A DNA stretch of 64,000 nt, taken from NCBI RefSeq assembly GCF_900774055.1, contig NZ_CAAGSW010000004.1:62001-126000 (forward strand). Direction: 5' to 3'. This document shows, piece by piece, positions 5,511 to 49,075 of this stretch. A program made the position numbers and the translations under genes. The notes below the pieces were generated by a model that saw nothing but the letters and a program-made list of their open reading frames with translations, ran no database searches and had not been told where the DNA came from. The stretch is from Methanococcoides sp. AM1 (lineage in GTDB: Archaea > Halobacteriota > Methanosarcinia > Methanosarcinales > Methanosarcinaceae). Each line of letters opens with the position of its first letter. The stretch's first letter is position 1.

Positions 5511-5729
5511 GTTTGATTATTTAATGCAAAAATATGCTAAATGATTGCAACAGGCAGACATTTATATGTTTATCATTAAAATATAATATTAGGGATTAGG
5601 GGACCGAGGTTAGTATAATTGTTCTATAATGGAACTTCGTTCTTTCCTTTGAGTTTCTTATTTAAGGTAAATTAGATCTCATTCATATAATTTGTATTAT
5701 ATCTATGCGCTTTCGCCAAGGTGTGCGAT

Positions 5730-7649
5730 ATGAAAATGGATGATGTGCCTCTAAAAGTGAAACTGATCCTTTACATCGGATTCAGTGTCCTTATAGTAAT
5801 GGCTGTTACAACGGCCATCATTATCAATACCAGCACATCCCAGTATGAGGAACTTGCATATAAGAAATCCATAGATAAAGCAAGCAATTATGCAAACCAG
5901 TTCAACTCGGACATGCAATCGAACATGGCCATTGCAAGGACCATCGCAAGCACACTGACCGTTTACAATTCCTCTGACAGGAATGAAGTTAACGATTTCC
6001 TAAGGGAGATCCTTGTTGATAATCCCAATCTGATAGGTACCTATACTGGTTTTGAACCTAATGCTTTTGACGGAAGAGATGCTGAATTTGCAGATACTGA
6101 AGGATATGATTCCACAGGCCGCCTTGTACCTTACTGGAACAAGATCGGAGGGACCATGTTCGTGGAACCCCTTATTGACTATGATACCTTAGATTATTAC
6201 CAGTTGCCAAAACAGCTTGAAGAGGAAGTACTTACAGAACCATACCTGTATCAGGGTGAACTTATTGCGAGCTATGTAGCACCAATAATGAGGGAAGGTG
6301 AGTTCGTTGGTATCGGCGGTGTTGATGTCTCACTCAACTACATCGATGAGATCGTTTCCAATGTAACTGCTTTTGAAGCCGGCTATGCTTTTACGACAAG
6401 CAATACTGGTATACTGCTATCTCATCCTGTACACAAGGAATGGATCGGGACAAAGACACTTGATGATTTTAACGATCCAGAGATATCACGCATGGCTGAC
6501 GACATCATCGTCGGAAAGGGAGGTCATATTGAGACCATTGATCCAACAACAGGCGAGTATTCGATAATCTTCTATGAGCCGGTACGTACTGGAAATTATT
6601 CTTTTATTCTGGTGATCCCGGAAGATGATATGCTTGCGGATGTCACAGCCTTGCAGAATGAACTGATCCTCATATCATCGCTTGCACTTATTTTCATGGC
6701 AGGTGCAGCTTATCTTGTCGCGATGTCCATAACACGTCCGATAAATGATATCGTATCCAATTTTGCATATATCTCGAACTCTGCCCTGAAAGGCGATCTG
6801 AGCAGGAGAGCTGAAACGGACGTGGAAGTGGATTTAAGGAAGATACCATCGGGTTTGAATGATATCCTTGACTCGCTCCAGACCTATTCAGATGAGCTTG
6901 AAGAAGCAAATCAGGAACTCAAATCGCTGGATCAGATGAAGGATTCTTTCCTGTCAAATGTCAGCCATGAGCTGAGAACACCTCTTACCAGCATTAAAGG
7001 CTATACCCAGAATGTATATGATGAATCCCTGGGACAGCTCAACGACCAGCAGAAAACATCACTTGGAACCGTGCTACGTAATTCAGAAAGGCTCAGGCGC
7101 CTGATAGATTCCCTGCTTTACGTGAGCAAGGCACAGGCAGAGATCATTGAATATGACTTCAAAGAGTCACTTGTAGAAGATATAATAAACAGCACCTTCC
7201 TGGATACCATCATGCTTGTTGAAGCGAACGATCTGCATATTGAAAAGAAAGTAGCTTCTGATCTTCCAGCGATCAAAGCCGATGAAGATCGAGTGGTCGA
7301 TATGCTGAACAATTTAGTTGATAACGCCATCAAGTTCACTCATCCAGGTGGCATGATAACCCTGGGTGCATATGAGGAAGAAAGATACATGCACCTGACC
7401 GTTAGTGATACTGGAATAGGCATTCCCAAAGAGCTAATTCCAAACCTGTTCAGGAAGTTCTACCAGATCGATTCGTCCATCAGAAGAAAATATGGAGGGA
7501 CCGGTCTGGGTCTGTACATCTGCAAAGAGATAGTTGATGCACATTCCGGTGAGATCTGGATCGAGAGTGAACCACACCATGGAACCACGGTTCATATAAG
7601 GCTTCCAAAATCAAGGGATGAACGGGAAGTTACTGGAAGCAAGCAATAA
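5730..7649 (+). CDS. membrane sensor histidine kinase with extracellular Cache domain
   Basis: 639 residues. The layout is a first membrane helix (about 12-34), an extracellular double-Cache sensor (about 40-300), a second membrane helix (about 308-330), HAMP (about 330-385), a short coiled coil, HisKA with SNVSHELRTPL (phospho-accepting His413) and HATPase_c. ATP-site boxes NLVDNAIKF, DTGIGIP and GGTGLGLYI are intact. It should sense a small extracellular ligand and autophosphorylate, but no response regulator lies nearby, as is common in methanogens. I chose ATG 5730 because AAGGTG sits six bases upstream; an in-frame GTG at 5721 overlaps that ribosome site. The kinase core closely resembles that of the PAS-GAF kinase near 47-49 kb. 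Confidence 0.92.
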   Translation: MKMDDVPLKVKLILYIGFSVLIVMAVTTAIIINTSTSQYEELAYKKSIDKASNYANQFNSDMQSNMAIARTIASTLTVYNSSDRNEVNDFLREILVDNPNLIGTYTGFEPNAFDGRDAEFADTEGYDSTGRLVPYWNKIGGTMFVEPLIDYDTLDYYQLPKQLEEEVLTEPYLYQGELIASYVAPIMREGEFVGIGGVDVSLNYIDEIVSNVTAFEAGYAFTTSNTGILLSHPVHKEWIGTKTLDDFNDPEISRMADDIIVGKGGHIETIDPTTGEYSIIFYEPVRTGNYSFILVIPEDDMLADVTALQNELILISSLALIFMAGAAYLVAMSITRPINDIVSNFAYISNSALKGDLSRRAETDVEVDLRKIPSGLNDILDSLQTYSDELEEANQELKSLDQMKDSFLSNVSHELRTPLTSIKGYTQNVYDESLGQLNDQQKTSLGTVLRNSERLRRLIDSLLYVSKAQAEIIEYDFKESLVEDIINSTFLDTIMLVEANDLHIEKKVASDLPAIKADEDRVVDMLNNLVDNAIKFTHPGGMITLGAYEEERYMHLTVSDTGIGIPKELIPNLFRKFYQIDSSIRRKYGGTGLGLYICKEIVDAHSGEIWIESEPHHGTTVHIRLPKSRDEREVTGSKQ

Positions 7650-30286: not shown

Positions 30287-30859
30287 CCTGTGGACAATAT
30301 TTGTTCAGAATAAAATAAGTACTGTTTTTTAATTTCTGATTTTATTTTTTTATTTTTTCTTGTTATTTGCAACTTATACCTGCTAATTATGTTTGTTTTC
30401 TAATACATAGTATATAGCTTAATCTATAAGATATTATATATTATCAAATACTGAAATTAAATTATTTACTTATAGTGTCTATTGAAGTGCTTTTTTCCCC
30501 ACTAGTATTTGAGAAAGCAAAAAATATACTCAATTGAATCGATTTGATTTTATAGTATATTGCTACCACAGATTTCCAATTATAATATATAAGAGATGTG
30601 GCTAACAATATAGTCATTTTTTTATCATCCTATGTTTATTTGAAAAAATCAATATCAATAGACTTTATATTTTTAGATAATAATTAATATTAAATATACC
30701 TCCTATAGAAAATATTATATATTAAATTTCACAAAAACAAATGTTTATATAATACAAAATCTGATTTTATTTTGGATAAATCTACCCAATTTGCGAGTTT
30801 GAAATAATATTTGCCATATCTGGTCTGACCAGATCATAAACTATATTGGAGTGTTATAT
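30287..30859 (+). promoter_or_regulatory. mtaA upstream region: promoter and palindromic leader element
   Basis: The tract is over 75 percent A+T between divergent genes and holds no gene. The likely TATA box is TTTATATAATA at 30744-30754, which would give a leader of about 80 bases. In the leader is a palindrome ATCTGGT-CTG-ACCAGAT (30818-30834), 13 bases before the GGAGTG ribosome site (30848-30853) of mtaA. It may be an operator or an RNA hairpin. Confidence 0.55.
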
Positions 30860-31879
30860 ATGACCGATCTAAACCCTAAAGAAAGACTATTAAAAGCATT
30901 AGCTAAAGAACCAGTTGACAGAACTCCGGTAGTATCTGTAACACAAACTGCTATTGTAGAACTCATGGACCAGACTGGTGCTGCGTGGCCGGAAGCCCAC
31001 TCAGATCCTGAAAAGATGGCAACTCTTGCGATCGCATCACATGAGATCGGTGGTTTGGAAGCTGTAAGGTACCCATACTGCCTTACCGTCCTTGCAGAGG
31101 CAATGGGCTGTGAAGTCAACATGGGAACAAAGAACCGGCAGCCATCTGTTACTGATCACCCATATCCAAAAGGTGTAGACAACCTTGAGATGCCTGCAGA
31201 CCTGCTGGCTAATGGAAGGATCCCTGCTGTCCTTGAAGCAACAAAGATCATAAGAGAAAAGGTCGGAGATGATATCCCCCTGGTTGCGGGCATGGAAGGT
31301 CCTGTAACCCTTGCATCTGATCTTGCAAGTGTTAAGAAGTTCATGAAATGGTCGATTAAGAAACCAGATGACTTTGAGACCATCCTTGACTTTGCAACCG
31401 ATGCATGCATCGAATACGCAAACGCATTAGCAGATGCAGGTGCAGATGTTATCTGTGTACCTGATCCTGTAGCATCCCCTGACCTGATGAACCCGTCCAC
31501 ATTCGACACAGTTCTCAAGCCAAGACTTGCAAGATTTGCAGAAGCTGTAAAATGCCCGATGGTATTACACGTCTGTGGTAATGTCACCCCTATCCTTGAC
31601 ATGATGGCAGACTGCAAGTTCGAAGGACTTAGTATCGAAGAGAAGGTCGAAGATCTTAAAGGTGCTATTGCAACAGCAGGTGACAGGGCAGTTATTGTAG
31701 GCAATGTATCCAGTCCTTTCACATTGCTTTCAGGTGATGTGGCAAAGGTCAAGGAAGACTCAAAAAGAGCACTGGAAGATGGTGTTGCTGTATTATCCCC
31801 CGGATGTGGTATTGCACCAAATACACCTGTGGAGAATGTCAAAGCCCTTGTTGAAGCAAGGGATGAGTTCTTTGCTTGA
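30860..31879 (+). CDS. mtaA: methylcobamide:coenzyme M methyltransferase, methanol-type
   Basis: 339 residues of the uroporphyrinogen-decarboxylase-like family. It moves the methyl group from methyl-Co(III) of MtaC to coenzyme M, giving methyl-CoM. The zinc ligands are all present: H237 and C239 in LHVCGN and C316 in SPGCGIAP. I start at ATG 30860, which has GGAGTG six bases upstream; with this start the zinc ligands fall at the positions I remember for Methanosarcina MtaA. It heads the methanol island, followed by its own strong terminator and the ramA-like gene. MtbA-type paralogues are close, but the surrounding mtaCB genes favour the methanol form. Confidence 0.93.
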   Translation: MTDLNPKERLLKALAKEPVDRTPVVSVTQTAIVELMDQTGAAWPEAHSDPEKMATLAIASHEIGGLEAVRYPYCLTVLAEAMGCEVNMGTKNRQPSVTDHPYPKGVDNLEMPADLLANGRIPAVLEATKIIREKVGDDIPLVAGMEGPVTLASDLASVKKFMKWSIKKPDDFETILDFATDACIEYANALADAGADVICVPDPVASPDLMNPSTFDTVLKPRLARFAEAVKCPMVLHVCGNVTPILDMMADCKFEGLSIEEKVEDLKGAIATAGDRAVIVGNVSSPFTLLSGDVAKVKEDSKRALEDGVAVLSPGCGIAPNTPVENVKALVEARDEFFA

Positions 31880-31931: not shown

Positions 31932-32006
31932 GAACTTTATAAGTCTCAATTTCAATTTTAATTTCAAATCATACGATCGAGGTCGATCGGACAGGGAGTC
32001 ATGATT

Positions 32007-33617
32007 ATGCGAACGGGAATTGCAATAGACCTTGGAACAAGTGGTTTCAGGGCACAGAAAGTGGATCTGGACAATGGTGAAATAAAGAGGACTGTAATTA
32101 CTATGAGGAATCCTCTCCCAGGTGCAAATGTAATGGATCACCTGGATTTTGCTATGACCTATGGACAGGACAAGGCACATGGGCTGGTTATCAGTGCTTT
32201 CAGGCATATTGTCAATGAGCTTGAGCCTGAGAATGGCACCGTGGACAGGATAGCCATTTGTGGTAACCCCATACAACTATCACTTTTCCAGGGAATTCCT
32301 ATTGATGATCTTGCATATGCAGGTGAAAGAAAAAAACAATTGATGAACATTCAGGAGCAAGAGCGCGATGCTTCAATTGTTGACAGCATACAGATCAAAG
32401 GACTTGAGGATCTTGATTGCAAGGTCGTTATCCCACCTGCCATCAAACACGAAGTCGGTGCTGATGCCCTTGCATTGATCGTTAAATCAGGAATGTTGAA
32501 CTCGGATGAAATCTCGATTGCCACAGATTATGGGACCAATGCTGAAATGGCCCTTAAAGTAGGGAATATTATCTATACAGGTTCTGCAGCAGCGGGGCCT
32601 GCACTTGAAGGACAGGAGATCGAAGACGGAAGTATTGCACGTCCTTTTGTGATCTCAGATATTGAGTTCAATAATGGTAACCTGAGAAACTTTGTCCTTG
32701 ACGAGGAAATGAACACTATCCGGGGTTCTCTTGTAAATTATAAGACCGGAGATGTTGTTGAAGACGGTTCCATAAAAGCATCCGGAATCACCGGAACCGG
32801 AGTGATAGCACTTATTGATGAAGCTATGGACAACGGGCTCATCCAGTTGCCAAATATCAACACAAGTGATAAAATAATCCACCTTCAGGATAATGTGAAA
32901 TTCACAGAAAAAGACCTTGCAGAAGCAGGAAGAGCTATTGGTGCCATACGTGCAGGCCATGTAACGCTGTGTAATGCTGCAGGCATATCTATGGAAGATG
33001 TGCAGATAGCCTACATGTCCGGTGCTGCAGGCACATATATGGATGCATTGAAGGCGCATCGTATCGGTATGATCCCTTACAATGTTTCAAATGTCTGCCA
33101 GATAGGCAACACATCCCTGATAGTTGCAAAGGAGATCCTGCTCTCGGAAGATCGGCTATGGGAACTCCAGAAGATTGCCAGGGAGATCGTTGGTACTCAC
33201 GTAATGTTCGCAACTGATGAAGCTTTTAAAGAAGCTTATATCCTGGAACTTTCCTACTGGAACGAAGGAATGCCATTCAAGGGCCTGAAAAAGTTTCTCA
33301 GGAAAAAAGGGCTGCCCACAATTGATGTAGTAAAGACGACCCCGAATGTTGAAAAACGTGTGTTGAAGGATATTCCTGACCTTGGGGATGAGGGGTTGCA
33401 CGTTCTCGAACAGGTTGGAACTTCTCTTAAGATGGAGGTTGAAGGTTGCATCGATTGCCACCAATGTATGGATATATGTCCAAATGATGCCCTAAAAGAG
33501 GAGAATCGCAATGTCAGTATACGGACGGATCTCTGCGATGGGGCGCATTGCCAGAAGTGCATTCATGTATGTCCAGAGGATGTGCTTGACTGGAACAAGC
33601 TCAAAGTGATGGGATAA
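32007..33617 (+). CDS. ramA: RamA-type reductive activator of corrinoid methyltransferases
   Basis: 536 residues. The large N-terminal part carries an ASKHA-like fold (GIAIDLGTSGFRAQKVDL at the start, DYGTNAEMAL, TGSAAAGPALEGQ), and the C-terminus holds two four-cysteine ferredoxin sites: CIDCHQCMDICP and CDGAHCQKCIHVCP. RamA proteins use ATP and an electron donor to reduce inactive Co(II) corrinoid back to Co(I) on methyltransferase corrinoid proteins. Position between mtaA and mtaCB points to MtaC as target; RamA of methylamine systems is closely similar, so the exact partner is inferred. ATG 32007 has AGGGAG eight bases upstream; ATG 32001 would be only two bases from it. Confidence 0.88.
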   Translation: MRTGIAIDLGTSGFRAQKVDLDNGEIKRTVITMRNPLPGANVMDHLDFAMTYGQDKAHGLVISAFRHIVNELEPENGTVDRIAICGNPIQLSLFQGIPIDDLAYAGERKKQLMNIQEQERDASIVDSIQIKGLEDLDCKVVIPPAIKHEVGADALALIVKSGMLNSDEISIATDYGTNAEMALKVGNIIYTGSAAAGPALEGQEIEDGSIARPFVISDIEFNNGNLRNFVLDEEMNTIRGSLVNYKTGDVVEDGSIKASGITGTGVIALIDEAMDNGLIQLPNINTSDKIIHLQDNVKFTEKDLAEAGRAIGAIRAGHVTLCNAAGISMEDVQIAYMSGAAGTYMDALKAHRIGMIPYNVSNVCQIGNTSLIVAKEILLSEDRLWELQKIAREIVGTHVMFATDEAFKEAYILELSYWNEGMPFKGLKKFLRKKGLPTIDVVKTTPNVEKRVLKDIPDLGDEGLHVLEQVGTSLKMEVEGCIDCHQCMDICPNDALKEENRNVSIRTDLCDGAHCQKCIHVCPEDVLDWNKLKVMG

Positions 33618-33955
33618 GCCCTGGTAAAACTAATGGATCAAGATGTAAGCTCACACCTAAAAGGCACTCAGTACTGGATATTGATCTAAAAGTAAAGGAT
33701 TGGATCGAAGGAAGCTACTATAGATCATTAGATGTGAGCAATTTCAATTATTCCTTAATTTAAGATAATCCTTTCGTTTAAGAGGAATGTCTTTAATAAA
33801 ACTGTGGAAGTTATAACTTATTGGAGGAATATTGCTATTGTTATATCAAATATCTGACAAAATCAAAAGCAATAAATATGTCATCTTCAGATTAATAGCT
33901 AAAAAATGTGTAAAGTAAGATAACTGACAACTTAAAAAAACGTGCAAAACGGGAG
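33618..33955. other. gap between ramA and the PAS protein, with an inverted repeat
   Basis: An imperfect inverted repeat GCTCACACCTAA (33649-33660) and TTAGATGTGAGC (33728-33739), one mismatch in 12, brackets about 67 bases. A stretch from about 33622 to 33765 is open in one plus frame and ends in TAA, but has no good start. The rest is AT-rich. A GGGAG site touches the next ATG. Confidence 0.4.
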
Positions 33956-36900
33956 ATGTATAATATATACAGTTCCAGAGTACACAGAAGTTTAAAACCT
34001 GCTGAAAAGGAGTCTATTATATCAATACTGGGCAGCATGCCCGAATTCGATAGCGAAGCATCTGTCTTTTTTTCCTGGGACATTGGAAATAACTGGAAGA
34101 TCCTGGATGTTTCTGATAACATATCACTTTTCGGATATGCTGTTGAAGAATGTAGGGATGAAAAATTCTCATATTCCGATCTTGTCCACCCCCATGACCT
34201 GAGACGTGTGGTCTCCGAGATAGAAGATCATCGTAAAACTGAGGGAGTCACATCTTTTTTCCAGGATTACAGGATACTGGCAAAGGATGGCTCTGTAGCA
34301 AATGTAAAGGTACTCAATGATCTCACAGTTGCTTCTGATGGGGCAATTGGATCTGCTTATGGTTTTATGATGGAAATGGTCAGTTTCCCTAATTCCGGTC
34401 ATGCAAATTGTTATTTCGAATCTATCCTTGGTTCACTAAAAGAATCGATATTAATACTTGGTAACGATCTAAAGGTGATCTATGCGAACGATTCTTTCTA
34501 TGATCTGTTTAAGGTCAGGCCTGAGGATATAATTGGTAAAAATGCAGGAAAGTTTGACCAGTTCAGACAAGATTCTCCTGAGCTTTTTAGTAATTTAAGC
34601 AATATTTGTGCGGAAGGGGAACCCATCAGGGATCTGGAATTCACATATGATTTTAGCAACATTGGTACACGTTCTATTTCGTTGAATGCAAGTCAAATAT
34701 CTTTGTCCCCGGATGACGGATGTCTGCTACTTGCATCGCTTGAAGATATAACTGAACTGAAAAAAGCAGAAGAGCTGATATCATCTGAAGAGAAATATTC
34801 TTCTCTCGTTGAAAAGGGAACAGAGGGGATCATTGTTGTTCAGAATGATGTTGTTAAGTATGCTAACACGAAATTCTGTGAACTGAGAGGACTGGCAAAA
34901 GAAGATATCATAGGTTCAGATCTCTTTTCCCATCTTCCTACTGAATATCATCGTATGATCTCGATAAAGATCAAAAAATGGACATCCAGCAAGAAGAATG
35001 ATCCTAAAAAATATGAAATAAACATATTTTCAAAAGATAAAGAAAACATACCTGTGGAAATAACTGCTTCCCGTAGTGACTATGCCGGAGAAAACGGAGT
35101 GATCATAACTATTAGTGACATCCGCGAAAAAAGAAAGGCAAAAGAAGCCCTCCTTGATACTGAGAAGAATTTTCGCCTCATCTTTGAGAAATCCCCAATG
35201 GGAATTGTACGCTTTGATCAGGAAGGCATCATCACTAACTCCAATGAAATATTTGATGAATTTTTCGAGCGTCTCCATGAAAGTATGATAGGGCAGAGTT
35301 TATTTGATCTCCTGCAGAATGATAACGTAAGGGAAGGTCTTAGCGATATTCTTAAAGGAAGGTCCAATAACTTTGCAGCTGAGACCCAGCTTACAAGGCA
35401 CAACGAATCTGTGATACTGCGTTTGAACCTAAGTTCATTGATAGTAGATGGTTTTCCTCAGGGCGGCATGGCCATCTTTGATGATATAACCCTACATAAA
35501 ATGGGAGAAGAGTCCCTTCAGCAGAATGAGACCCGTTTGACAAAGCTTCTTGAACTCAGTCAGATGTCAGATGCTGATGTCTCCAGCATTATCAGATTTG
35601 CCCTTCGATCAGCTCTTGATCTTACACAAAGCAGTAACGGTTATCTTATCAGGTTAGGGGACGATGGAATGCCTGATATGTTTTTATACCTTTTCAAAGA
35701 TGAAAAGGGTCAGTATGCATTTACTGAAGATATTAATGATTTTTCTTCGAATCTGAAAAAGAATATTAAAGAACGTATTTCAACAGGGGAACCCCTGTTT
35801 TCTAACATTCTGGAAGATCGTGACAATAAGCCTGATGGATCAAAGAGATCGAACAGTCTTCTGGAGATCCCGCTTCATGATAATGGTTCCATCAAATTTG
35901 TGCTGGGTGTCGGTAGCAAGGATACGGCATACAATTACCTTGACACGCATAATTTGAAACTACTTATACAGTCCATGTGGAAACTGATAATTCAAAAGGA
36001 AGCGAATGAAGCACTTCGGACTTCTGAGGAAAAGTATTCAACCCTTGTTGAAAAAGGAAATGATGGTATCATCATAATTCTGGATGACATGCTTCTTTTC
36101 ACAAATCCAATGTTCTGCAATATTGTGGGAATATCTGCTGATAAAGTAAAGGGGACAAAATTTTCCAGGTATCTTGCACCTGAATACAGAAGAATGATGG
36201 AGAAGATATTTTTAAAGATACTTGAAAAGAAAAAGAGTGTCAATCGTAAATCTGAAGTTTTTCTCCTGGGTAAGAATGGAAGGTACGTTCCGGTTGAAAT
36301 AACAGCTTCTCGCATTGAGCACGATGGAAAACTTTCTGTAATGGCTATCATCCATGATATTACAGAACAGAAAGAAAAAGAGCAGGAATTACTTGGATCC
36401 CTTGAGGTCCAGAAGGTTCTGCAGGCTGTAATAAAGACCAGCCCTGCCGTTGTTTTCTTCTGGGGATCCCAATCTGATTGGCCTGTAGAGTTCGTTTCTG
36501 AGAACATCGAAAAGTTTGGTTATTCAACGGAAGAATTCATTTCCGGAAAGCTGAATTATAGTGACATTATCCACCCATCTGATTTGGAGAGGGTACAGGC
36601 ATATTTTACCAGGAAGAATTCGGAAGGTGCATCAGAATATAACATCGAGTATCGTATTATAACAAAATCCGGTGATGTACGCTGGGTGGTGGAAAGGTCA
36701 ACTCCGCAATATGACGAGGAGGGTAACCTTGCCCATATTCAGGGTATCATCCTGGACATCACAGAGCGTAAAAGGATCAACCAGTTCCTTAATATTGAAT
36801 CGGAGGTAGGCAACCTGTTCACCCCTTCAGGGGACATTCAGGAAACCTTTGACCAGCTTCTGGAGTTCTCTTTACACATCGAGGGTCTTGATTGTGGAGC

Positions 36901-37621
36901 CCTTTATATCCTTGATAAGAATAATGGCGACCTGAACCTTGTATCGCATAATGGATTCTCTGAAGATTTTGTGAAGAACAATTCTCACTATAGTCCTGAT
37001 ACTATACAAAGCAGGTTATTCCTTATGGGTTATCCGCTCTATAAACTTTATTCAGAGATATTCCCACAGACACGCCATGATAATCGTGTGGATGAAGGAA
37101 TTCTTGCTACTGCAGTTGTTCCTGTAAAATACAGAGAGGAGATCGTAGCAGTTCTTTTCCTTGCATCCCATGTCGAGTACGATATACCTTATGATGTTCA
37201 TGCATCAGTGGAGACCATTGCTGCACAGATAGGGTCTATAATAGGCCGTATCGAAACCGAGGTTGATCTCCAGAAGAACCAGAACGATCTGAAATTACTT
37301 CTGGACAGCATTGAAGACCTCATATTTGTTCTTGATCAGGAAGGTTGCGTTCTCTATACAAATGAAAGCGTGACGAAAAAGCTTGGTTATTCAAAAGAGG
37401 AAATAACCGGCATGAACTTCATAAAAATGCATCCGCACAATAAAGTGCTTGATGTAGCAACTTACTTTAATAATGCAGCTTCAGGTAAAGGTGTTGTATT
37501 CACACTTCCTTTGCTGACCAGCACTGGAATGGTAATTTCTGTTGAGACGAGATTGACAAAAGGCAGATGGAAAAAACAGGGAGCATTAATAGCTGCCTGT
37601 CGTGAGGTGAACAGGACCTGA
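33956..37621 (+). CDS. giant cytoplasmic sensor: seven PAS and two GAF domains, no output domain
   Basis: 1221 residues without membrane helices. The order I read is PAS (about 35-135), PAS (145-275), PAS (280-395), PAS (400-520), GAF (525-680), PAS (683-810), PAS (815-940), GAF (945-1100), PAS (1105-1220). PAS ends carry the usual DITE-(R/Q)-K linkers. In the methanogen kinases elsewhere in this window a HisKA/HATPase pair follows such domains; here the protein stops with TGA straight after the last PAS and no kinase frame continues downstream. It must act through a partner or by direct contact. It sits between ramA and mtaC1, so control of methanol enzymes is the obvious hypothesis. The start is uncertain because GGGAG touches the ATG; residue 28 is another methionine. 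Confidence 0.85.
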   Translation: MYNIYSSRVHRSLKPAEKESIISILGSMPEFDSEASVFFSWDIGNNWKILDVSDNISLFGYAVEECRDEKFSYSDLVHPHDLRRVVSEIEDHRKTEGVTSFFQDYRILAKDGSVANVKVLNDLTVASDGAIGSAYGFMMEMVSFPNSGHANCYFESILGSLKESILILGNDLKVIYANDSFYDLFKVRPEDIIGKNAGKFDQFRQDSPELFSNLSNICAEGEPIRDLEFTYDFSNIGTRSISLNASQISLSPDDGCLLLASLEDITELKKAEELISSEEKYSSLVEKGTEGIIVVQNDVVKYANTKFCELRGLAKEDIIGSDLFSHLPTEYHRMISIKIKKWTSSKKNDPKKYEINIFSKDKENIPVEITASRSDYAGENGVIITISDIREKRKAKEALLDTEKNFRLIFEKSPMGIVRFDQEGIITNSNEIFDEFFERLHESMIGQSLFDLLQNDNVREGLSDILKGRSNNFAAETQLTRHNESVILRLNLSSLIVDGFPQGGMAIFDDITLHKMGEESLQQNETRLTKLLELSQMSDADVSSIIRFALRSALDLTQSSNGYLIRLGDDGMPDMFLYLFKDEKGQYAFTEDINDFSSNLKKNIKERISTGEPLFSNILEDRDNKPDGSKRSNSLLEIPLHDNGSIKFVLGVGSKDTAYNYLDTHNLKLLIQSMWKLIIQKEANEALRTSEEKYSTLVEKGNDGIIIILDDMLLFTNPMFCNIVGISADKVKGTKFSRYLAPEYRRMMEKIFLKILEKKKSVNRKSEVFLLGKNGRYVPVEITASRIEHDGKLSVMAIIHDITEQKEKEQELLGSLEVQKVLQAVIKTSPAVVFFWGSQSDWPVEFVSENIEKFGYSTEEFISGKLNYSDIIHPSDLERVQAYFTRKNSEGASEYNIEYRIITKSGDVRWVVERSTPQYDEEGNLAHIQGIILDITERKRINQFLNIESEVGNLFTPSGDIQETFDQLLEFSLHIEGLDCGALYILDKNNGDLNLVSHNGFSEDFVKNNSHYSPDTIQSRLFLMGYPLYKLYSEIFPQTRHDNRVDEGILATAVVPVKYREEIVAVLFLASHVEYDIPYDVHASVETIAAQIGSIIGRIETEVDLQKNQNDLKLLLDSIEDLIFVLDQEGCVLYTNESVTKKLGYSKEEITGMNFIKMHPHNKVLDVATYFNNAASGKGVVFTLPLLTSTGMVISVETRLTKGRWKKQGALIAACREVNRT

Positions 37622-37764: not shown

Positions 37765-38529
37765 ATGATCGACATAAATCCTCAACATACATTAGTGCGA
37801 TATAATCTGAAAGTAGAAAAGGAAATGACTCCTGAAGAAGTTGCAGAGGAGCTATTCCCGACAGATGAAGTTATACGTGAAGTTGCAAGAGCTGTTTTTG
37901 AAGGTGACGAAGATGAAGTTGTGGAAAGTCTTCAGAATGCGATAGATAAGGGCAAGGATCCTTTGCACCTGATAAATGATGGACTTATGATGGGAATGGA
38001 TATCGTTTCAACACTTTATGATGGTAATATGCTCTATCTTCCTGACGTTATCATATCAGCCCAGGCAATGATCGAAGGAATTGAGTTCTGTAAGGAACGC
38101 TCCGGTGAAGAACACGAATACAGGGGCAAGATCGTTTCCTATGTTGTGGAAGGTGACATACATGATATCGGCAAGAAGATCGTAACAGTGCTTCTCAGGG
38201 CAAAAGGCTATGAGGTCATTGATCTTGGAAAAGATGTTCCCGTTGAGGAGGTCATTGCTGCTGTGAAAAGGGAAAATCCGATCATGCTTACCGGGACTGC
38301 CCTTATGACAACTACAATGTCTGCATTTAAGGATGTAAACTCCCGTCTTCTTGATAGTGATATTAACGTTCCGGTGGTATGTGGAGGGGGAGCAGTTACA
38401 CAGGATTTTATTTCCCAGTACGATCTTGGCCTCTACTGTGAGGAAGCAGCAGACGTTCCGAAGATCGCAGATGCTATACTGAAAGGATTTGATGTTGAAC
38501 GCCTCAGGAAGGAGTTCCACAAACATTGA
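37765..38529 (+). CDS. mtaC: methanol corrinoid protein, copy 1
   Basis: 254 residues. It carries the cobamide that accepts the methyl group of methanol from MtaB and hands it to MtaA. The helical cap domain is at about 25-118. The Rossmann-like B12 domain follows, with the lower-ligand histidine H133 in GDIHDIGKK and the later TGTALMTTTM and GGGAV motifs, which cradle the nucleotide tail. All are intact. mtaB1 follows 13 bases after the stop. Compared with copy 2 it has less biased codons, suggesting weaker or conditional expression. Confidence 0.94.
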   Translation: MIDINPQHTLVRYNLKVEKEMTPEEVAEELFPTDEVIREVARAVFEGDEDEVVESLQNAIDKGKDPLHLINDGLMMGMDIVSTLYDGNMLYLPDVIISAQAMIEGIEFCKERSGEEHEYRGKIVSYVVEGDIHDIGKKIVTVLLRAKGYEVIDLGKDVPVEEVIAAVKRENPIMLTGTALMTTTMSAFKDVNSRLLDSDINVPVVCGGGAVTQDFISQYDLGLYCEEAADVPKIADAILKGFDVERLRKEFHKH

Positions 38530-38542
38530 TGGTGGTTACGTT

Positions 38543-39928
38543 ATGGATATTAAACGTTATACAAAAATGGCATACGATGATTTTGAGGATATGGTCTTCG
38601 GACATTCCCTCTATCCTGTAAAAACGGGTTTTGATCTCGAGATCGGAGCCGGTTATACTTCTGCAGAGGTGAATTATGCACCCCGGCCTTCATCAGGAGA
38701 GTCAAAAGAGAAACTGGTCGCAGAATATGAGAAGATCACAACTGATATCCTTCAAAGGATGGTTCAGGTAGGTTTTCCTTCCGTAGTGCTTGAGACCGAA
38801 CATGTGCTTCAGATGACCACTAATCCGGGATGGGGGGCAGAGATTGCACATGCCCAGAAGACCATCATGGAAGAATATTACGACGAATATGGTATCAAAT
38901 GCGCATTGCGCAATACTCTTGCCGATATCCGCGGAGGTCGTGAGAGTCTTGACCTGCGGGGAGACCCTTATAATGTCCTTATGGAATCCTTCGAGCAGGT
39001 AGCATCCAACGGTGCGGATATGCTTTCGATCGAGTCACTTGGAGGAAAGAGCGTTTTTGACACTGCTATCCTGCATAACGATATACCGGGAATTTTATTT
39101 TCGATCGGAATTCTTGGAACTCTTGATGTTGAATTTATCTGGTCCGAGATCAGCAGCATCGCAAAGAAACACAATGTAATTGCTGCAGGAGATACTGATT
39201 GTTCCCAGGCTAATACTGCTATGTTCATTGCAGGAGGTCTCCTTGACAGGAAACTTGCCCATACAATGGCTATAGTGGCAAGGGCTATCTCTGCACCGAG
39301 ATCACTTGCAGCATACGAGGCAGGAGCTGTTGGCCCGGGAAAGGATTGTGGTTATGAGAACACAATAATCAAGGCTATAACCGGAGTTCCCATTTCACAG
39401 GAAGGAAAAGCTTCCACCTGTGCTCATTCGGATCTTATGGGTAATCTTGTTATGCAGTGCTGTGATCTCTGGTCCAATGAGTCCGTAGAATATCACGGTG
39501 AATTTGGCGGTACAAGTGTCCAGTGTTGGGGCGAAACATTATCCTATGATTGCTCAATGCTGAATACAGCTATTGAAGCTGGTTATGAAAAAGTATTCCG
39601 GGATGTGCTAATGGCTTCGGACCGATATCGTGATCCTCAGTCCTTCATGCTCGCATTTGATAATGCGTACAGGCTCGGGGAAGTTATCGTAAAAGATGGT
39701 AATGATATCTATTTACGTGCCAGGAACGCTGCAATTGAAGCCTGTGATATTATTGAGAAAGGGTCAAAAGGACAGTTAGAACTTTCCAAATTTGAGAAAG
39801 TATCTCTGGCAAAGGTAAGCAAGGTACTTAATTCCCTTACCGATGAAAAGGATGTTTTCATTGAAGCGCAGATGGATAAATTTAAGTCTGAAATGCCTGA
39901 ATTCAGGCCTGAAAACTATGGTTATTGA
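38543..39928 (+). CDS. mtaB: methanol:corrinoid methyltransferase, copy 1
   Basis: 461 residues. It is a zinc enzyme that activates methanol and methylates Co(I) on MtaC. The zinc ligands fall exactly at E164 (LSIESLGG), C220 (GDTDC) and C269 (GKDCGYEN) when translation starts at ATG 38543, the same numbering as the Methanosarcina barkeri enzyme, which fixes the start. GGTGG lies upstream. A perfect seven-base-pair terminator stem begins right at the stop codon. Copy 2 has the same length and the same ligands but differs throughout the variable surface. Confidence 0.95.
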   Translation: MDIKRYTKMAYDDFEDMVFGHSLYPVKTGFDLEIGAGYTSAEVNYAPRPSSGESKEKLVAEYEKITTDILQRMVQVGFPSVVLETEHVLQMTTNPGWGAEIAHAQKTIMEEYYDEYGIKCALRNTLADIRGGRESLDLRGDPYNVLMESFEQVASNGADMLSIESLGGKSVFDTAILHNDIPGILFSIGILGTLDVEFIWSEISSIAKKHNVIAAGDTDCSQANTAMFIAGGLLDRKLAHTMAIVARAISAPRSLAAYEAGAVGPGKDCGYENTIIKAITGVPISQEGKASTCAHSDLMGNLVMQCCDLWSNESVEYHGEFGGTSVQCWGETLSYDCSMLNTAIEAGYEKVFRDVLMASDRYRDPQSFMLAFDNAYRLGEVIVKDGNDIYLRARNAAIEACDIIEKGSKGQLELSKFEKVSLAKVSKVLNSLTDEKDVFIEAQMDKFKSEMPEFRPENYGY

Positions 39929-41491: not shown

Positions 41492-41504
41492 AGGGGTGAG
41501 AAAA

Positions 41505-42890
41505 ATGGCAATAAACAGATACACAAAGATGGCATATGGCAATGCAGATGAAATGATCTTCGGTAAATCAAAGTTCCCTGTAAAGGCAGGACTTGGCCTT
41601 GAGATCGGTGGCGGATATACATCCCCTGAAGTGAACTATGCTCCAAGACCTGAAGCAGGTGCATCAAAGGAGAAACTCGTCAAGGAATACCAGAGGATCA
41701 CCACAGATATCATGAACCGTATGGTCCAGGTAGGTTTCCCATCTGTAGTACTTGAGACAGAACACGTTGAACAGATGACCAACAACCCAACATGGGGAGG
41801 AGAGGTCGCACACGCACAGAAGGAGATCATGGAAGAGTTCCACGACGAATACGGCATCAAATGTGCATTAAGGCACACACCTGGTGACATCCGTGAAGAC
41901 CGTGACTTCCTTGAGCTCAGAGGTGACAAATTCAACACTCTTATGGAATCCTTCGAAGAAGTAGCATCAAATGGTGCTGACCTGCTCTCCATTGAGACAA
42001 TGGGTGGTAAGGAAGTATTCGACTATGCTATCCTGAGGAACGATGTTCCTGGTATGCTCTACGCAATTGGCTGCCTTGGTACCATGGATATGGACTTCAT
42101 CTGGCAGGAGATCGCCAGTGTCGCAAAGAAGAACAACGTCGTTGCAGCTGGTGATACTGATTGTTCCGAAGCAAACACTGCAATGTTCATTGGTGGCGGT
42201 CTGCTCGACAAGAACCTTGCTCACACACTTGCTATCATCGCAAGGGCAATCTCAGCACCAAGGTCACTCGCAGCATACGAGGCAGGAGCTGTAGGTCCGG
42301 GCAAGGACTGTGGATATGAGAACACGATCATAAAATCAATTGCCGGTGTTCCAATTGCACAGGAAGGTAAGAGCTCAACCTGTGCACACTCTGATGTCAT
42401 GGGTAATCTTGTCATGCAATGCTGTGACCTCTGGTCAAACGAGTCTGTCGAATACCACGCTGAGTTTGGTGGTACATCCGTACAGTGCTGGTCAGAATCC
42501 CTCGCATATGACTGTGCTTTGATGAACACAGCAACTGCAACAGGAAAAGCAAAGGATCTCAGAGACCTGTTCACACTTTCCGACAAATACAGGGATCCAC
42601 AGGGCTATGTGCTTGCATATGACAATGCATACCGCGTTGGTGAGGCAATTGTCAAGGACGGAAACGATATCTACCTCCGTGCAAAGAATGCTGCACTCAA
42701 ATCTGTAGAGATCATGGAAGAAGGAATGGCTGGTAAACTTGAACTCACAAGGTTCGAGAAGGGTGCACTTGCAGATGCAAAGGATGCACTGTCTGCACTT
42801 ACAGATGACCAGGACACCTTCATGAGTGACTGTATGGCCAAGTACAAGGAAGAAGTTAAGGTATTCCTGCCTGAGAACTACGGTCTCTAA
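41505..42890 (+). CDS. mtaB: methanol:corrinoid methyltransferase, copy 2
   Basis: 461 residues. Zinc ligands correspond to copy 1: Glu in LLSIETMGG, Cys in AGDTDCSEA and Cys in GKDCGYENT. ATG 41505 has AAGGGGTG upstream; a GTG at 41496 is inside the ribosome site and is unlikely. Codon use is as biased as in mtaC2. A perfect ten-base-pair stem-loop ends the operon shortly after the stop. MtaB and MtaC form a tight complex that converts methanol and the Co(I) corrinoid to methyl-Co(III). Confidence 0.96.
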   Translation: MAINRYTKMAYGNADEMIFGKSKFPVKAGLGLEIGGGYTSPEVNYAPRPEAGASKEKLVKEYQRITTDIMNRMVQVGFPSVVLETEHVEQMTNNPTWGGEVAHAQKEIMEEFHDEYGIKCALRHTPGDIREDRDFLELRGDKFNTLMESFEEVASNGADLLSIETMGGKEVFDYAILRNDVPGMLYAIGCLGTMDMDFIWQEIASVAKKNNVVAAGDTDCSEANTAMFIGGGLLDKNLAHTLAIIARAISAPRSLAAYEAGAVGPGKDCGYENTIIKSIAGVPIAQEGKSSTCAHSDVMGNLVMQCCDLWSNESVEYHAEFGGTSVQCWSESLAYDCALMNTATATGKAKDLRDLFTLSDKYRDPQGYVLAYDNAYRVGEAIVKDGNDIYLRAKNAALKSVEIMEEGMAGKLELTRFEKGALADAKDALSALTDDQDTFMSDCMAKYKEEVKVFLPENYGL

Positions 42891-47065: not shown

Positions 47066-49075
47066 TTACCGGCGTAATCTGATGTGAACTGTGGTACCTT
47101 TCCCTTCTTCACTTTCGATCCATATATCTCCTTTATGGGCTTCAACGATGCTCTTGCAAATATAAAGCCCCACACCTGTTCCGCCATATTTGCGTTTGAT
47201 CGAGGCATCGATCTGGTAAAATCTCTGGAATAGGTTTGGTATTAGTTCTTGAGGTATTCCAATTCCGGTATCTTCTACCTCGATATGCAGGTACTTTTCC
47301 TCTTCATATGCCTTCAGGACAATCATGCCTCCTGAAGGGGTAAACTTTATTGCATTATCAATAAGGTTGGTCAACATATCGGAAAGTCTGGTTTTATCTC
47401 CATCTATCAAAGCTAAATTATCAGGTACACATTTTTCAATTTTCAAATATTTCTCTTTAATTTGCAAATTTACGTCATTTACTACATTATCTATGATCTC
47501 TGCAATCCAGACCTTCTCGATATTATATTGGATAGCCCTGGATTCCAGTCCGCTGATGAACAATAACGATTCTATCAGGCGTCTGAGCCGTTCAGAATTT
47601 CTCAAAACTGTATTGACTGCCTTTTTTTGCTGTTCATTGAGTGATCCCAGGGTTCCATCAAAAACGAGTTCTCCATAACCCTTGATGGAAACAAGCGGTG
47701 TTTTAAGTTCGTGGCTTATGTTGGATAAGAACTCATTCTTCATCACATCAAGGGATTTGAGATCCTCGTTTGCCTTTTCCAGTTCTTTATTCACCTTTGA
47801 AAGTTCATTTGCATATTTTTGAAGTGCCTCTTTGGATTGGTTTCTCTGGATAATTCTCCACATACCTTCCATAAGTAACGTCAGTTGGCGAACGTCGGAT
47901 TCATTATATTCTTCATCTTTGTTCCCTACGCCTGCTAATGCAACTATCTTTTCACCATCAAACACGGGGATGTTCATGTGGCGTGTTAGTTTCACATGGT
48001 CTTTTGGAAATCCTTTCTTTAAGGGGCTTGGAGCATTGTAATCATTTGTAATAATGGGTTTTCGCTGCCTCAGCGCTTCTCCCCAAAGTCCGGTGCTTTT
48101 CAGGGTATAAACTATAGGCCTATCCCTTATTTTGCATTCCTGCATAGCAGTTTTGGACCATGAATGCATTGTGAGAACGGCCTCATCTTCATTTACGAAT
48201 GCGATATAACCAACTTTGCTTTGAGTAAGCCTGACAGCTTCTTCACGGGCAAAGTCTACGATCTCCTGAATTGACCTATCGGTCATCTGATTAAGTTGCA
48301 AAAGTGTTTCGAGACGATACTCATCAAGCTTCCAGGCATCTTCAGCCTCTTTGCGTCTTGTGATATCTTCAAAGATGCCGATGCCACCCAGAAGATCACC
48401 ATCTTCTGATATGTTAGGGCTGTATTCAGCTTTAATTGGCGTTATTTTGCCACTGATTACAGAATGATACATGTTTTCATAATGACCCGGCTTTCCAGAG
48501 AGTACTGTTTTAACAGCATTCTTCATTTTTTCATCCTGGATCGAAGTTGCCATATTAAAGCCAATAATATCTTTTCTGGATACAGCAATGATCTCAAGGA
48601 ACTTTTCATTACAATGTGTGATCATCCCATTTTGATCAAAGTGGAATATTCCCATTGGTGAATTCTCAAAGATCATTCGGTACTTCTTTTCGGATCCCTT
48701 TAGCGCTTCTTCTGCCATCTTACGTTCACTGATATCTTCAAAGATACCGATACCACCCAGAAGAGTGCCTTCTTCTGATATGTTTGGGTTGTAATCAGCT
48801 TTTACAAAAATAAGTTCGCCACTGATCACAGTGCAATATTTTCCTTCAAAATGACCCGGTTTTCTTGAAAGAACCGCTTTGATGGCATCCTTCATCCTTT
48901 CATTTCGAATAGAAGTCACCATATTAAAGCCAATAACATCTTTTCTTGAAGCAGATATAATTTCAAGGAATTTGTCATTGCAATGAGTTATCATCCCATT
49001 TTGGTCAAAATGAAAAATTCCCAGAGGTGAATTCTCAAAGATAAGACGGTAGTTCTTTTCCGAATCCTGAGACAT
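47066..49075 (-). CDS. cytoplasmic sensor histidine kinase PAS-PAS-GAF-HisKA-HATPase
   Basis: 669 residues, no membrane helix. Two PAS domains (about 5-118 and 127-242) are almost identical to one another, for example IFENSP-(L/M)-GIFHFDQNGMITHCN in both. A GAF domain (about 255-410) follows, ending in EEYNESDVRQLTLLMEGMW, then a coiled coil, HisKA with SNISHELKTPL (H455) and HATPase_c with NLIDNAIKF, DTGIGIP and GGTGVGLYI. The GAF type recalls the haem-binding redox kinases (MsmS-like) of Methanosarcina, and one cysteine (MQECKIRD) is a candidate ligand, but that is speculative. GAGGT lies before the ATG. No response regulator is near. Confidence 0.92.
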   Translation of the reverse strand: MSQDSEKNYRLIFENSPLGIFHFDQNGMITHCNDKFLEIISASRKDVIGFNMVTSIRNERMKDAIKAVLSRKPGHFEGKYCTVISGELIFVKADYNPNISEEGTLLGGIGIFEDISERKMAEEALKGSEKKYRMIFENSPMGIFHFDQNGMITHCNEKFLEIIAVSRKDIIGFNMATSIQDEKMKNAVKTVLSGKPGHYENMYHSVISGKITPIKAEYSPNISEDGDLLGGIGIFEDITRRKEAEDAWKLDEYRLETLLQLNQMTDRSIQEIVDFAREEAVRLTQSKVGYIAFVNEDEAVLTMHSWSKTAMQECKIRDRPIVYTLKSTGLWGEALRQRKPIITNDYNAPSPLKKGFPKDHVKLTRHMNIPVFDGEKIVALAGVGNKDEEYNESDVRQLTLLMEGMWRIIQRNQSKEALQKYANELSKVNKELEKANEDLKSLDVMKNEFLSNISHELKTPLVSIKGYGELVFDGTLGSLNEQQKKAVNTVLRNSERLRRLIESLLFISGLESRAIQYNIEKVWIAEIIDNVVNDVNLQIKEKYLKIEKCVPDNLALIDGDKTRLSDMLTNLIDNAIKFTPSGGMIVLKAYEEEKYLHIEVEDTGIGIPQELIPNLFQRFYQIDASIKRKYGGTGVGLYICKSIVEAHKGDIWIESEEGKGTTVHIRLRR

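Follow-up and report, generated by a model that had tools for sequence, protein, structure and literature searches.

In Methanosarcina, mtaCB is activated by pairs of Msr proteins, which carry the FilR1 domain (PMC3960522), and two redox sensors of Methanosarcina acetivorans, the haem-based MsmS and the thiol-based RdmS (PMC6944256), carry a C-terminal ATPase/kinase domain that lacks the H-box (PMC11784639). Sensors without an obvious output, thought to work by protein contacts, have been described among the archaea as REC-PAS-GAF response regulators and 'nonenzymatic HK-like proteins' (PMC5847659). The literature that was searched contains little on how methanogens outside Methanosarcina control the choice of methyltransferase, which is a step of methylotrophic methanogenesis in marine and saline sediments. 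The bacterial protein NifL, a PAS protein with a kinase-like C-terminus, binds the transcription factor NifA without phosphotransfer.

The window analyzed here, a 64,000-nucleotide stretch of DNA from Methanococcoides sp. AM1, contains an mta cluster in which the gene for a large PAS/GAF protein, designated P0001, lies between ramA and mtaC1:

30851..31879, plus strand: mtaA (methylcobamide:CoM methyltransferase)
32001..33617, plus strand: ramA-type corrinoid reductive activase
33956..37621, plus strand: PAS/GAF protein P0001, 1221 aa, without an output domain (from the translation, Pfam and the orthologues)
37765..38529, plus strand: mtaC1, directly 3′ of the PAS gene
38489..39928, plus strand: mtaB1, from the first possible start codon
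40721..41491, plus strand: mtaC2
41496..42890, plus strand: mtaB2

Genes for a YaaH-type transporter, a cation-efflux protein and a hydantoinase-like protein follow mtaB2 in that order. Since P0001 sits at the place of a known gene switch in other methanogens, it probably regulates methanol use in an unusual way, and its adjacency to mtaCB is, taken by itself, an association and not regulation.

Pfam and alignment divided P0001 into seven PAS and two GAF domains:

residues ~33-145, 150-272, 280-397 and 400-515: PAS1 to PAS4
residues 525-685: GAF1
residues 690-806 and 820-938: PAS5 and PAS6
residues 945-1102: GAF2
residues 1108-1218: PAS7
36398..37267, plus strand: PAS6-GAF2 cassette, the part conserved across genera and defining the family described below
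37277..37609, plus strand: the C-terminal PAS7, complete, at the site that the transmitter takes in kinases

The same domain count, again with no output model, had been given in an earlier note made from the sequence alone, which also held that the protein stops right behind a PAS and that no kinase frame follows. Both points were borne out. The solved PAS domain 3mjq aligned over its full length with the last PAS of P0001 (1113-1219), indicating that PAS7 is complete, and past the stop codon every frame is interrupted until the MtaC frame, 144 intergenic bases on. No HisKA, HATPase, REC, HTH, GGDEF or methyltransferase domain was found in P0001 by Pfam. The sensor is not followed by the HisKA or HisKA_2 plus HATPase that mark a histidine kinase, and Pfam detected neither the PF08350 and winged helix that mark Msr/FilR1 proteins nor the N-terminal receiver of REC-PAS-GAF response regulators; the C-terminal HATPase/CA domain of H-box-less kinases of the MsmS/RdmS type is likewise absent from P0001. 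An AlphaFold model of the C-terminal 401 residues, built on a shallow four-sequence alignment, had a pLDDT of 36, too low for interpretation.

MsmS and RdmS resemble P0001 in being cytosolic PAS-GAF arrays with genes near corrinoid methyltransferase and Msr genes and are 24-27% identical to it over PAS-GAF-PAS modules, but they have a C-terminal ATPase/kinase domain whereas P0001 has none and also lacks the GAF cysteine. Cys656, presumably the haem-binding residue of MsmS, is present in the MsmS candidate at locus L140 and is replaced by tyrosine in P0001, no orthologue has a cysteine at that position, and GAF1 of P0001 contains no cysteine at all, so that covalent haem as in MsmS appears unlikely. 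The REC-PAS-GAF regulators and nonenzymatic HK-like proteins are similar in their missing output, but P0001 has neither REC nor HisKA and its family is tied to methyltransferase loci. The NifL/NifA pair may serve as a working analogy, with homology to NifL limited to single PAS domains (weak NCBIfam match, 28.6 bits against a cut-off of 242).

Orthologues of P0001, all without output, were present in 11/11 Methanococcoides genomes and in further genera, with identities of 72-83% in one Methanococcoides group, 57-60% in the other and 36-41% in the further genera. The earlier note had asked whether homologues also lack kinases and had named HisKA/HATPase in sister species as the sign of a truncation; no such homologue turned up, every orthologue found ending at the same place with the same PAS. 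When one sequence per genus was compared, conservation was highest in PAS5, PAS6 and GAF2 (48, 56 and 45%), PAS7 was present in 21/21 and 37% conserved, and the N-terminal domains were variable (25-38%) and sometimes missing. Because the C-terminal half is the best conserved, these alignments suggest that it is the working or docking end.

A family was proposed for proteins that match the PAS6-GAF2 cassette above 300 bits and whose chain ends within ~150 aa of it; P0001 scored 477 bits and has a tail of 117 aa. The cassette profile gave two groups, kinases below 200 bits and, above 300 bits, 52 distinct proteins of which none has a kinase transmitter; the transmitter test did flag kinases elsewhere in the same set. 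A search with the cassette alignment located it in 94/112 Methanosarcinaceae genomes. When 50 newly drawn members from different genera were read at full length, all were closed at the 3′ end, none had a transmitter, and the chain ended 2-13 or 113-125 residues past the cassette. All checked members, old and new, had a C-terminal tail of 2-149 aa and no transmitter, and with about a dozen overlaps between the two sets they represent roughly 90 different proteins. Sixteen paralogues (six plus ten) contained only PAS and GAF by Pfam, and in an order-wide sample the cassette was found in 14/14 genomes of Methanosarcinaceae and 1/46 of other families, this last being a fragmented assembly. P0001 probably belongs, as the representative at the methanol locus, to a family of cytosolic PAS/GAF proteins in Methanosarcinaceae that are output-less by design, a family-wide case of sensors that need a partner protein as their output, which is a recurring and little-studied theme in archaeal signalling.

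Nearly all orthologous loci have mtaC directly downstream of the PAS gene on the same strand, usually with mtaA-ramA before it; in several other genera the gene lies between ramA-cobW and mtaC, and genus g4 has a further mtaC also upstream of it. Two g4 orthologue loci (L051 and L053) have neither ramA nor mtaA nearby. Paralogues were found, either in this genome or in related ones, at loci for other methylated substrates: one of 305 aa at a dimethylamine locus (MtbB/MtbC), one of 299 aa at a mixed dimethyl/trimethylamine locus, others of 730-870 aa at trimethylamine loci (MttBC), and one of 792 aa at a glycine-betaine-like locus that encodes an MttB homologue and BCCT transporters. The amine-locus paralogues have no ramA adjacent to them, and the L054-type paralogues and the short forms of 300-350 aa in g7/g11 have no methyltransferase genes nearby.

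The Msr proteins, whose genes in Methanosarcina also lie beside mtaCB, differ from P0001 in being DNA-binding proteins (FilR1/PF08350 with a wHTH), since P0001 has neither PF08350 nor an HTH, but the distribution of the two suggests the same genomic role. Among 56 mtaB matches in 37 genomes, a PAS protein lay within 12 kb of 37 and a FilR1 protein of 7, with no mtaB having both; the remaining 12 had neither in range, some of them being on short contigs. In 55 further genomes, a PAS protein was found within 8 kb of 30/60 mtaB genes in g4, g6, g8 and g14, and near 0/62 in g7 and g11, which are Methanosarcina-like as judged from their MsmS/RdmS-like genes, one with a cysteine at position 656. In one g4 genome, a second mtaB without the PAS protein has an Msr pair. 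This exclusion fits functional replacement of Msr by the PAS protein, with lineage and function partly confounded, as the pattern partly tracks phylogeny (g7/g11 versus the rest) and so represents few independent events. No transcription factor gene adjoins the PAS locus, and an orphan FilR1 gene was rejected as a conserved partner, the neighbourhoods in G000, G004, G014, G015, G017 and G022 revealing no distinguishing pattern. A tandem FilR1 (Msr-type) pair was observed beside a dCache histidine kinase at L068:13796-15384 (G000 C4:139796-141384), with counterparts at L069, L071 and L073; in several Methanococcoides genomes this pair sits at a monomethylamine-type locus ~21-38 kb from mtaCB.

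Alignment of the ramA-PAS spacers across the genus revealed a block that is much more conserved than its flanks:

33649..33739, plus strand: conserved upstream element; arms 33649-33658 and 33730-33739, core GATTGGATCGAAGGAAG at 33698-33714
33755..33767, plus strand: putative TATA-like AT-rich stretch, ~16-20 nt past the element

Twenty-nine nucleotides of the element were identical in 11/11 Methanococcoides genomes, in which the neighbouring protein is down to ~59% identity. A first model gave weak matches just 5′ of the PAS gene in other genera, and inspection of these revealed the same design, a unit of 62-97 nt with inverted-repeat arms like GCTCACAYCT/AGRTGTGAGC around the core GATTGGATYGAAGGAAG, the distance from arm to arm differing between genera. 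A second model (E <1e-5) gave 53 matches in 51/112 genomes, of which 49 have the cassette of an orthologous PAS gene starting 1.7-2.7 kb downstream on the same strand and two have the expected mtaB downstream instead (G089 and G123); of the last two, one lies where a contig ends and the other is an additional copy in G004 (contig C14:57759-57855, L223), which apparently accompanies a fragment of the ramA end and has no PAS gene. The element was present at every listed orthologous PAS gene and was not found 5′ of 12 inspected paralogues, and within the family it is restricted to the clade of P0001. All 66 paired half-sites in 2.29 Mb of DNA (overlapping loci counted) belong to it. An operator common to the PAS gene and mtaC1/mtaC2 was rejected, the element occurring once in the window and the PAS-mtaC spacer being poorly conserved. 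Against the Rfam 15 covariance models only a chance-level match was obtained, and a literature search excluding most subscription journals gave no description of either the element or the protein family, so that the regulatory element is apparently undescribed. With this element, the family-wide rule and the strong genomic context, we regard the finding as real.

The element is more probably a DNA operator just 5′ of the PAS promoter than a leader RNA, a reading favoured by the TATA-like stretch, which, as judged by eye, follows the element by ~16-24 nt in most genera and would let transcription of the PAS gene begin downstream of it. A structured RNA, either a leader or a small RNA, is the less probable alternative. 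In an alignment of 20 sequences, the 11-bp stem was 88.6% paired, with four pairs changed on both sides and 19 compensatory cells, and its covariation score of 0.200 exceeded all 500 shuffles (0.080) and the slid controls (<=0.091). Arms at a variable distance are also easier to reconcile with a loop than with two half-sites lying on the same face of the DNA, but the palindromic half-sites of one DNA-binding protein may covary as well.

Given its missing output domain, the effect of P0001 must be exerted in trans, in line with the earlier note, whose possible partners were MtaC/RamA, a kinase in trans and a transcription factor; the action in trans and the tie to methyl-transfer genes were supported. 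Our main reading, to which we assign a probability of about 0.6, is that P0001 is an output-less sensor that regulates mtaCB by contacting a second protein, either a transcription factor or a kinase. Its N-terminal PAS/GAF array varies from genus to genus; it would read a metabolic or redox signal and hand the change to the conserved PAS5-PAS6-GAF2-PAS7 end, which would bind and control a separate regulator, most likely FilR1/Msr or another wHTH transcription factor or else a kinase, and this regulator would in turn set mtaCB expression. The PAS gene would itself be controlled via the element at 33649-33739.

That P0001 specifically serves a histidine kinase in trans as its detached sensor is an unlikely variant, for which the window offers one candidate:

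47066..49075, minus strand: PAS-PAS-GAF histidine kinase, candidate trans partner, with a canonical H-box (NEFLSNISHELKTPL) and a GAF cysteine of the MsmS/RdmS type

This kinase is related to MsmS/RdmS and, with H-box and GAF cysteine intact, is perhaps a true redox histidine kinase; its gene is found close to the mta cluster in G000, G004 and G005. It is co-linear with residues 277-702 of P0001 at 29% identity over 441 aa, past which the kinase goes on with HisKA and P0001 with PAS domains. The earlier description of very similar PAS/GAF parts in the kinases of the window therefore held for relatedness in this one case and overstated the similarity, and the kinase at 5721-7649 gave no significant similarity to P0001. 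Detached modules do occur, as solo PAS-GAF proteins of 337 aa were found at L117:8921-9934 and L146:6053-7066, a few kb from an RdmS-type kinase, and the one at L117 is 70% identical to the kinase's own PAS-GAF, making it a recent output-less copy of the sensor. In G010, however, the kinase is absent at the equivalent position and its homologue lies elsewhere in the genome, so that this kinase is not an obligatory neighbour, and in other genera no kinase gene consistently adjoins the orthologues.

Slightly less likely still is action on the enzymes themselves, in which case P0001 would be a redox-sensing scaffold for RamA, MtaC or MtaA and would adjust the reductive activation of the corrinoid. 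The position of the gene, exactly between ramA and mtaC in Methanococcoides and between ramA-cobW and mtaC in several other genera, speaks for such a role, but the role is at odds with the g4 orthologues that have no ramA or mtaA nearby and with the mta loci of g7/g11, which have no such protein and yet require activation for the same corrinoid chemistry. The exclusion with Msr, together with the amine-locus paralogues that lack an adjacent ramA, favours expression control over direct corrinoid activation. A truncated or decaying kinase, or an assembly error, has practically no chance of being correct, since, although related kinases with similar sensor modules exist, orthologues from many independent assemblies share an identical end point, the ~90 family members lack a transmitter, the terminal PAS is complete, conservation is strong and no readable frame lies past the stop.

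Beyond the single protein, we tentatively propose, at somewhat less than even odds, a control of methanol methyltransferases distinct from both two-component systems and Msr, in which a large PAS/GAF protein without a catalytic or DNA-binding part, its gene under its own conserved element (an operator or a new structured RNA), replaces the Msr switch in most Methanosarcinaceae genera except the Methanosarcina-like ones, with paralogues serving other methylated substrates. The gene and the DNA element are both defined and the contrast with the Msr switch is clear, which makes this question testable.

An in-frame TAG was also observed at one conserved PAS position (..YT[TAG]EYR..) in methyltransferase-associated kinases of the RdmS type from several genera (L141:4643-7570, residue 216, and L108, L142, L143, L113, L118, L115, L116, L117 and L146), where sister genera have Q, H, S or I. 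This TAG is likely a pyrrolysine codon, and such a pyrrolysine candidate has been listed for M. acetivorans, M. mahii and M. barkeri (PMC3639795); what is new is that it extends to Methanococcoides and is linked to RdmS.
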